Shown: in pieces, positions 56,305-58,468 of the stretch
Layout: each line of letters begins with the position of its first letter
How positions within the stretch are numbered: the stretch's first letter is position 1
NCBI RefSeq assembly: GCF_000293805.1
Contig: NZ_AMBZ01000009.1
Location: forward strand, 124,001 to 188,000
Source: Paenibacillus alvei DSM 29
Lineage (GTDB): Bacteria; Bacillota; Bacilli; Paenibacillales; Paenibacillaceae
Reading direction: 5' to 3'
DNA length: 64,000 bases
Position numbers and translations under genes: made by a program
The notes under the pieces: model-generated
The model's input: only the letters and a program-made list of their open reading frames with translations
Database searches by the model: none
What the model was told of the DNA's origin: nothing

Positions 56305-57120
56305 TTAGTTGTTACTAACCGTTGCGGCAGGTTCTACCCTCGTCCGATACAACTTCTTCGCTAGCAGTGTCTGCAGAATAATGAACACGCCGCCTACACA
56401 CCAATACATCGGTATGACTGCGGGAGTAGTCAGGGAAAACACGGTCATCATGATTGGAAACACGTACCCCATAAACGCAAACTGCTTGCTCTGCATCGGA
56501 TCCATGCCGATTTGTGTAACTTTATATTGAAAGAAGTAGATGATCCCGACGAGCAGCGGGAGCACAATGTCCGGTCGTCCGAGCTGGAACCATAAGAACG
56601 AGTGTGCAGCTACTTCCGGTGTGAACTTAATGGCATAATACAATCCTGATAAGATAGGCAGCTGGATAAGCAGCGGCAAGCAGCCGATTGCCAACGGATT
56701 CACCTGATGCTTCTGATACAATTGCATCATTTCTTGCTGCATCTTTGCTTTTGATTCTGCATCCTTCTTATCCTTATATGTGTCTTGAAGAAGCTTCAAC
56801 TCAGGCTGCAATACGTCCATCTTCTGTTTCATCTTCTGTTGATTGCGATACTGTCTCATCATGAGCGGCATCAGCGATAATCGTACGAGCAGCGTGAGCA
56901 AAATCAATGCGAGCCCGTAGCTTCCACCGAAAAATGCCGCGAAATGTTGGATCAGATACACAAACGGATACACGATGTAATGGTTAAAAAAGCCTGGCGT
57001 ATTAGCATCAACCGCCGCATTAGAACCGCTTACCCCGCATCCGCTTAACAACACTAGGATCACCAGTGCCCCGATTAGAATATATTTTCGTTTGTAGGTG
57101 AATACATTGAACTGCTCCAT
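56305..57120 (-). CDS. yidC: YidC/Oxa1 membrane protein insertase
   Basis: 271 residues. Lipoprotein-type signal (ALVILVLLSGCGVSG), then five membrane segments with the conserved Arg in helix 1 (LTLLVRLSLMPLMMRQ) and the charged cytoplasmic hairpin (EKAQQEMMQLYQKH-type). It inserts and folds membrane proteins with or without SecYEG. AAGGAGG precedes ATG 57120 but its AAGG is in the stem at 57130-57163, and the gene overlaps the upstream MifM-like frame by 46 bases, indicating translational control. Confidence 0.95.
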   Translation of the reverse strand: MEQFNVFTYKRKYILIGALVILVLLSGCGVSGSNAAVDANTPGFFNHYIVYPFVYLIQHFAAFFGGSYGLALILLTLLVRLSLMPLMMRQYRNQQKMKQKMDVLQPELKLLQDTYKDKKDAESKAKMQQEMMQLYQKHQVNPLAIGCLPLLIQLPILSGLYYAIKFTPEVAAHSFLWFQLGRPDIVLPLLVGIIYFFQYKVTQIGMDPMQSKQFAFMGYVFPIMMTVFSLTTPAVIPMYWCVGGVFIILQTLLAKKLYRTRVEPAATVSNN

Positions 57121-57425
57121 AATAATCCTCCTTGATTGGATAACGTTCTGATTCCAATCAAGGAATGGCAGTCACCTGAATCTCCATCCGGCGCTTCTTT
57201 TCGCTTCACACTTCTGGTTAACCAGTGATGAATTTCTGTCCGACCGACGATCCGCTCCTGAGGAAGAACAATTGCGACTCGGCCCCTGTATGCAGGCACT
57301 AAGAAGTGATCGACCGCGACATACAGATGTGCAGCGTAAGCATACGTAAGTGAACATATAAGACCGATCGAGATCAAATACGGAATCAAATCAGAAGACA
57401 CCAGATCCTGGAATTCCAACAGCAA
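57075..57425 (-). CDS. MifM-like regulatory nascent chain upstream of yidC
   Basis: 116 residues from TTG 57425 (GGGGAGG eight bases upstream; GTG 57434 is too close). An N-terminal membrane helix (DLIPYLISIGLICSLTYAYA) is followed by a polar tail. The tail has EIHHWLTRSVKRKEAPDGDS ending in acidic residues: an Ile-x-x-Trp, basic stretch, Pro, acidic order like that recalled for the B. subtilis MifM arrest region (Arg69-Ile70...Trp73, later DEED). The next codons run through a hairpin that sequesters the yidC ribosome site. A ribosome stalled at the acidic codons would occupy the 5' arm of that hairpin and expose the site. I infer MifM-type feedback control of YidC; stalling itself is not visible in sequence. 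Confidence 0.75.
   Translation of the reverse strand: MLLEFQDLVSSDLIPYLISIGLICSLTYAYAAHLYVAVDHFLVPAYRGRVAIVLPQERIVGRTEIHHWLTRSVKRKEAPDGDSGDCHSLIGIRTLSNQGGLLWSSSMYSPTNENIF
57130..57163 (-). promoter_or_regulatory. Hairpin sequestering the yidC Shine-Dalgarno
   Basis: In the transcript CCTTGATTGGA and TCCAATCAAGG form a perfect 11-bp stem around a 12-base loop. The last four bases of the 3' arm are the start of AAGGAGG, whose remaining GAGG follows directly; yidC begins ten bases from the stem end. Confidence 0.85.
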
Positions 57426-57458
57426 TGTATTCACCTCCCCTTTTATGCAGATGAGAAC

Positions 57459-57487
57459 AGTATCTCACATGGAGAGACAAGTTTCAA
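57459..57487 (-). promoter_or_regulatory. Candidate promoter of the mifM-like/yidC transcript
   Basis: On the minus strand TTGAAA, 17 bases, GATACT, 34 bases upstream of the TTG start. Confidence 0.55.
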
Positions 57488-57604
57488 ATCAGGGAAAAAC
57501 AAACAGTTGGATACAACTTCGTAAACAAGTTTTATCTCAATAACAAGTATGAATGATCCTTTTTCTATGATCGAATCACCGATTCACTACCAGCAGTAAG
57601 AAGA

Positions 57605-57633
57605 AACAAGCTCTGCGAAGAGCAGAGCTTGTT
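57605..57633 (-). terminator. Terminator after the nucleotidyltransferase gene
   Basis: AACAAGCTCTGC and GCAGAGCTTGTT pair perfectly around five bases, followed by TCTT on the minus strand. Confidence 0.85.
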
Positions 57634-57698
57634 TTCAACGAAGCGCTTATTTGACAACCCGTTCTTCAATCGTCTTTTTAACGCAGCCAAGGATCTCT

Positions 57699-58468
57699 TT
57701 AAAAAGGAATGCGTTCTGAGTGAATCTTATAGTCATGTTCGGCAGCCCATGCGACTAGTCCGTTCCATAATTGTTCGCACGCAGCAATGATACGTTCCGG
57801 TTCAGACAACTGTCCGGACATGACCATGTTCGCGACAATATCATAGCCCTTCGGACGTTGCGGGAGCTCCAACGATTCCGGAAGCACCCTGGCTCCTGTT
57901 GAGTACAGCTTCCGATTGTGAAGACCGATCAACATGGCGCCGTATTTGGCGAATTGCATGGCCAAATACGGTAAATATGTCTGTGTGCCGGTCCGACTCA
58001 CATTCCGGAGCTTTCCGATGAACTCATACATCTCCCCTACAAGCACTTCATTAACCGCATTCGCGAAATCCACACTTGATGGTGATTCTGCCGCTTCCTT
58101 CAGCTTAGAAAAAATCCGTCTGGATCATAGAGACTTAGCGGAGAGAAGAACGGCCCGTGTGTCAAAGCCCATTCCCCTTCCACTGTTGCAGCATCGTTCA
58201 AAACAACGCTTACACTGCGTACATTCACTTCGGCCTTCCAAGGTCCTGCTGACCATTCGTAACTGAAGTCTACCTCTTCTTCCGCGTCCTTCAGCACACA
58301 GAACATCTCAATGTCCGAATAAGGCCCGTCCGTACCTCGGGATACGGAGCCATACACCCCGATTGCAACAATTCGATCGGTATATACCTCCTGCAAGCGG
58401 TTGGCGAGCTCATAACAGGTTGCCAGTCTTTCATGTCTTGAAATTTCTACAGGTCCATTCATGTTCAT
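57699..58468 (-). CDS. ANT(4')-like aminoglycoside nucleotidyltransferase (frameshift)
   Basis: ATG 58468 (MNMNGPVEISRHERL) has GGGAGAG about nine bases upstream. AIGVYGSVSRGTDGPYSDIE is the nucleotidyltransferase catalytic motif (GSxxxGxxxxxSDxE) and matches the staphylococcal kanamycin nucleotidyltransferase closely. The frame ends at DGFFLS; one base added to the A6 run 58109-58114 gives DGFFSKLKEAAESPSSVDFA and reaches GAMLIGLHNRKLYSTG, VMSGQLSEPERI and C-terminal RIPF, exactly the end of known ANT(4') enzymes. Repaired length is about 256 residues. It adenylylates the 4'-OH of kanamycin-type drugs. Confidence 0.88.

Follow-up and report, generated by a model that had tools for sequence, protein, structure and literature searches.

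The secondary yidC gene of Paenibacillus alvei DSM 29 is preceded by a short membrane leader that very probably works like MifM of Bacillus subtilis, while its membership of the MifM family by sequence is unproven. In the window analysed, a stretch of 64,000 nucleotides of this genome, the leader ORF (57075..57425, minus strand, as are all features of the locus given below) has 116 codons, starts with a TTG at 57425 preceded by a GGAGG 8 nt to its 5' side, and ends with a stop codon (57077-57075) inside yidC; it was recognised by reading of the ORF, by its presence in relatives and by a pN/pS below 1. The yidC gene (56305..57120, ATG at 57120, 271 aa, PF02096 at 1.2e-43) is the second copy of the genome, it is overlapped by the leader over 46 nt, stop included, and its Shine-Dalgarno sequence (SD), AAGGAGG, was read at 57127..57133. 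An earlier note on this DNA had described a 116-codon frame containing EIHHWLTRSVKRKEAPDGDSGDC that runs through a hairpin into yidC, and both points were borne out. It had also proposed MifM logic in a distant relative, a proposal supported by synteny, coding constraint, covariation of the hairpin, fixed spacing and a geometry matching that of mifM, and which we consider highly likely.

Two YidC-family matches were found in the P. alvei DSM 29 genome, and the other copy lies behind rnpA (PF00825 at 7.3e-33). The site after rnpA is that of the primary yidC, and yidC2 of B. subtilis is a secondary copy; therefore, the leader-linked yidC is a secondary copy, like yidC2. The leader carries an N-terminal hydrophobic segment (residues about 13-33, 57327..57389), seen by hydropathy and as a conserved block in the leader alignment, which is probably a transmembrane helix with N-out/C-in topology, its ends and topology being a reading of the sequence. 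Its hydropathy is modest (1.77 for the best 19-residue window, residues 8-26, versus 2.24 for a MifM), and this was counted against a MifM-type reading. After the hydrophobic segment come, in this order, RTEIHHWLTRSVKRKEAPDGDSGDC and a perfect 12-bp stem.

Upstream of the leader, a putative sigma-A promoter (TTGAAA-17-GATACT, 57459..57487) was found by consensus match, a candidate that is weak taken alone because 1.2 such matches are expected by chance for the one found. We also observed a terminator-like stem with a T-rich tail at 57634-57604, between the upstream gene and the leader, and the leader-yidC unit therefore probably has its own promoter. Start codons in the family, set by an SD rule, are TTG in 98 of 120 leaders, ATG in 20 and GTG in 2, despite a strong SD, and the TTG start perhaps keeps leader output low. 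Positions 56900-57700 gave nothing in Rfam at the gathering score, and the leader matched no Pfam or NCBIfam family at E<=1.

Five proteins were matched in a first protein search with the leader: two from Paenibacillus, at 49-50% identity, and three others at 90-99%. At E<=0.01, a profile of six leaders found matches in 192 of the 394 genomes of Paenibacillaceae, spread over 14 of 19 genera, and a broader leader profile matched in 50 of 398 genomes of the class, the weakest matches being probably due to chance. The loci with a named organism were 14 from Paenibacillus and one from Thalassobacillus, and KRKEAPDD was also present in two Bacillus proteins, of SCS-151 (E 4.7e-10) and, as a weak match, of FJAT-49711 (E 0.15). 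Among 163 loci with a leader match, 162 carry yidC directly 3' of the leader on the same strand; the loci are partly redundant, and counted by distinct leaders this is 138 of 139. The sole locus without a downstream yidC, L112, looks like a chance match.

Within its own genus, the leader and its yidC have been gained or lost together: the leader was found in 2 of 19 same-genus genomes, a close match to the leader-linked yidC was found in the same two only, and in the 17 others the best yidC matches were at 38-40% identity, the level of the other yidC copy of the P. alvei genome itself. Absence of the leader from close relatives had been named beforehand as counter-evidence, and it is indeed absent from these 17 genomes, yet so is the yidC to which it is linked. 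A literature search gave no Paenibacillus yidC leader among the matches listed, and none with KRKEAPD, RRKEAPD or EAPDDD. A 2024 survey (PMC10987492) groups 572 proteins, drawn from 592 Firmicutes genomes and picked by an acidic stretch, into a MifM cluster and may already list such sequences as MifM homologues.

The presumed arrest sequence is a conserved core that extends from R71 to C86 (RSVKRKEAPDGDSGDC, 57168..57215), as indicated by conservation and pN/pS. The residues conserved are R-x-x-[VI]-[KR]-R-[KR]-E-[AS]-P-D-x-[DE]-x-x-D-C, or in short form [VI][KR]R[KR]E[AS]PDxD. Over 94 pairs, which are not independent, pN/pS was 0.21 in the N-terminal part and 0.13 in the core; in the hairpin part it was 0.92, together with a twofold drop of pS from 0.32 to 0.16. 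We aligned 126 leaders in one register, numbered so that the R and the P of xRxxxP are +1 and +5; both residues were demanded, so that they are invariant by row selection only, and 126 of the 130 set leaders qualified. From codon -3 to +12 the amino acids are mostly kept and third positions are free, with six codons used for Arg +1 and four for Pro +5. From codon +14 onwards conservation lies in the nucleotides, with TCC for 63 of 65 Ser residues at +14 and TCG for 95 of 97 at +15, and constraint, as read from this alignment, passes from amino acids to nucleotides at the 5' arm of the stem. Cys +12, found in 111 of 126 leaders, is kept as an amino acid, since TGC (58) and TGT (53) are about equally used, and by analogy with MifM it would lie in or beside the P site of a ribosome stalled as predicted. 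The Glu of the core (codon 77 of the leader, 57197-57195, and its equivalents) was GAA in 106 of 113 cases, while the adjacent Lys, Arg and Pro codons are free.

Conservation of the core is partly ascertained, because the rows were gathered via profile matches. Of 138 distinct leaders, twelve either have no xRxxxP register or could not be placed in it, and 8 of the 138 lack the motif by the search pattern and are outside the set of 130. The leaders skipped from the alignment were L104 (for a register shift only), L106 and L107 (both RRYDAGD) and L162. Among those missed by the pattern, five (L159, L170, L174, L175 and L177) carry a version longer by one residue, R-R-x-K-I-S-P-D-D-D, while L108 has RKKESADD, L144 has KRKDAPID and L187 ends early. 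The natural variants of the core (KRKEAPD, RRREAPD, RRYKISPDDD, RRYDAGDD) are ready material for in vitro stalling tests.

The hairpin over the yidC SD consists of 12 Watson-Crick pairs with a loop of 12, joining a 5' arm (57153..57164) to a 3' arm (57129..57140) that contains most of the SD, as supported by the stem scan, the pairing and the fold. The perfect hairpin of 11 bp claimed before is thus real and does lie over the AAGGAGG site, but it is one pair longer (57164-57129). The 95-nt fold has an energy of -26.6 kcal/mol (z -2.87), and only 2 of 200 dinucleotide shuffles were equal or better. The pairing was compared in a common register, restricted to the 74 distinct sequences that share the 74-nt spacing; there, ten pairs were filled in 91.8% of cells, versus 28-71% when the arms were slid by 1-3, the slide of +3 being the control that is still 71% paired. 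In these 74 sequences, G-C occurs 39 times and T-A 25 times at pair 50/69, and G-C 37 times and A-T 24 times at pair 51/68. Mapped on a quickly built yidC tree with 86 rows, changes between Watson-Crick types occurred at five pairs, with at least 6 at 50/69, at least 5 at 51/68, and at least 2, 1 and 1 at the others, and two-sided changes of the stem numbered at least 15 in total. The stem, judged from these alignments, covaries. It beats shuffles at p<=0.05 in 110 of 128 loci, with a mononucleotide shuffle as the null and a scan that demanded a stem reaching SD+2; among the 18 loci below significance, L033, L037, L052, L058 and L115 carry a stem of 7-11 bp that is one base short of the scan, and weak stems are found among the rest, including the Thalassobacillus locus L073 and some other distant loci. 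In the comparison across relatives that had been suggested, the [KR]R[KR] core is conserved and the hairpin covaries, while the Trp expected to accompany them occupies position -6 in only 55 of 126 leaders. The hairpin was also considered as a terminator and rejected: a T run is absent 3' of it, and the terminator scan gives only the stem at 57634-57604, with a nested variant.

In 128 of 130 loci, 70-82 nt separate the core from the SD; the distances of L096 and L162 are taken as mis-set. The standard deviation of this spacing is 1.8 nt (119 loci), versus 34.8 nt for the position of the leader stop, which lies anywhere between 36 nt upstream and 167 nt downstream of the yidC start and falls inside yidC in 116 of 130 loci. 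The length from start to core has a median of 204 nt with a standard deviation of 11. A ribosome parked at the core requires a fixed spacing between core and SD; a protein acting in trans would not, and nor would plain coupling. Termination-reinitiation at the leader stop was dropped, because stop positions scatter.

We compared these leaders with the system MifM (YqzJ)-yidC2 (YqjG) of B. subtilis. Both have a short membrane leader directly 5' of a secondary yidC and a stem that hides the SD, their R..P and acidic positions can be aligned, and the 5' arm and the SD are equally far from the aligned core. In the MifM register, GGAGG lies at 75 nt in P. alvei versus 73-76 nt in five mifM loci (L193-L197), and the 5' arm at 42 nt versus 42-44 nt; four other Bacilli loci gave 75-78 nt and 42-46 nt, respectively. 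By the same scan, the stem is just 7 bp long in two of the five mifM loci. The only PDB sequence reached by the leader profile at E<=10 was MifM, a weak match (E 0.53) that is in register and aligns rkVKRKeaPDdDssd with RKVFRMNSPVNDEED; the match of the leader to MifM by hhalign was also weak (probability 33%, P 4.6e-4).

The two systems differ in the core itself, KRKEAPDxD-x2-DC in leaders of the P. alvei type and FRMNSPVNDEED in MifM, and in the end of the leader, since mifM ends before the yidC2 SD and the P. alvei leader ends inside yidC. The residues given as critical for MifM in PMC4423224 are R69, I70, W73, I74, M80 and N81; in the P. alvei-type leaders, R69-I70, W73-I74 and M80-N81 are absent or out of register, and the M80 and N81 positions are as a rule K/R and E. 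The earlier note had seen in Ile-x-x-Trp a common arrest element, and this did not hold: Ile at -9 is present in 33 of 126 leaders, Trp is the minority residue reported above, and aligning R75 and P79 ungapped with R79 and P83 of MifM leaves the Trp one residue off W73. At the positions of the DEED of MifM (86-89), D/E is found at +8 in 125 of 126 leaders and D at +11 in 89 of 126, +9 and +10 are mostly non-acidic, and P. alvei reads D-S-G-D. As the Trp is not conserved and the critical residues of MifM are absent, the leader should be regarded as a variant and not as a proven MifM orthologue.

During the stall of MifM its codons 89-92 are in the P site (PMC4423224), and the register with D89-S92 predicts D85, C86, H87 and S88 (57162..57173) as the stall codons of the leader. 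The stall had been proposed at acidic codons, which agrees with D85, the last acidic codon, but not with the other three. Our preferred reading, to which we give high confidence, is that the leader is a MifM-type monitor of YidC for the secondary yidC, acting through a predicted arrest. The nascent leader, with one N-terminal helix placed N-out, would be a substrate of YidC. At low YidC capacity, the leader tail would arrest the ribosome while roughly D85-S88 occupy the P site; the leading edge of this ribosome would then cover the beginning of the 5' arm, so that the stem could not form and yidC would be translated. Insertion of the helix by YidC would exert a pull that frees the ribosome, which would run through the stem and the yidC start and end 46 nt inside yidC, after which the stem would close again.

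An alternative is that the leader does stall but senses an input other than YidC insertion, such as SecYEG activity or membrane potential. The downstream gene is so regularly yidC, and the start-to-core length so short and narrow, that we consider this alternative unlikely; such a length fits the spacers of YidC monitors, which, measured from helix to arrest site, are shorter and less variable than those of Sec monitors according to PMC10987492. Plain translational coupling, in which translation of the leader itself would melt the stem with no programmed stall, draws on the same read-through of the stem and on the overlap with yidC in most loci; as it needs neither a conserved peptide core nor a core-to-SD distance held so tightly amid scattered stops, it appears quite improbable. 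Very improbable is a functional small membrane protein, partner or substrate of YidC, with a tail acting in trans and a stem that sets only the basal yidC level, because, despite amino-acid selection on its N-terminal part and core and the adjoining yidC, residues after the core are not kept as amino acids, leader length varies and the spacing is fixed on the mRNA.

Returning to the MifM-type monitor, we propose, tentatively and as somewhat less than an even prospect, that among the YidC monitors of Bacilli the older and more common arrest module is [VI][KR]R[KR]E[AS]PDxD-x2-DC (Paenibacillaceae and some Bacillaceae; 50 of the 398 genomes in the class, in part by chance, versus 5 of 398, L193-L197, for the MifM profile), that RMNSPVNDEED of B. 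subtilis would be a derived local form, and that the overlapping form would be two-sided, as the stalled ribosome would open the yidC SD while the freed one would sweep SD and start codon, end inside yidC and actively block initiation. If RMNSPVNDEED is derived, the MifM mechanism would rest on R..P-acidic and tunnel geometry and not on M80-N81. The leaders add a large, cleanly conserved set in which the core differs from MifM and the spacing is the same, and natural variation makes the arrest code readable, through the constant mRNA spacing, the single point at which constraint passes from peptide to RNA, and the core variants.

Three arrest peptides identified before yidC are named in PMC13183943 (2026), MifM, ApcA and CliM. 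CliM (uC_KYxIW) of Clostridia likewise has a membrane leader before yidC and a stem masking the initiation site, and is described there as monitoring YidC (PMC13183943), but its motif, K-Y-x-I-W, is unrelated in sequence and its stall site lies close to the 3' end of the frame; this motif is absent from the P. alvei leader and from the conserved core of the 126 leaders. ApcA of Actinobacteria (PMC7897499) shares a yidC2 leader with an N-terminal helix and a conserved C-terminal motif, yet this motif is R-A-P-G, from a different phylum, and the A-P within E-A-P-D is a mere resemblance. Regarding RAPP/RAGP arrest peptides (ApcA, RQH family), no R-A-P-P-like motif was found in the core of the 126 leaders, which as a rule have K-E-[AS]-P-D. 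SecM-secA and VemP-secDF2 have the regulatory logic in common (PMC10987492), with other targets, other arrest motifs and longer spacers.

We also noticed a third, distant yidC-like gene (frames of 227-236 aa) in five same-genus genomes (loci L026-L030, in G013, G017, G006, G018 and G008) and in two of another genus (L203, L204). It is preceded by a membrane leader of a second class, whose tail reads R-R-I-R-x-K-[IK]-P, or IRRKIPSRKPRKKPTDDE in L203 and L204. A profile of this second class gave 11 matches in 295 genomes, of which 4 look like chance and 7 are by the distant yidC-like gene. In L026 and L027 the leader stops before the gene, and in L028-L030 it runs into it and a stem of about 14 bp hides the GGGAGGG that precedes the gene; these leaders are possibly a separate class of YidC monitor.
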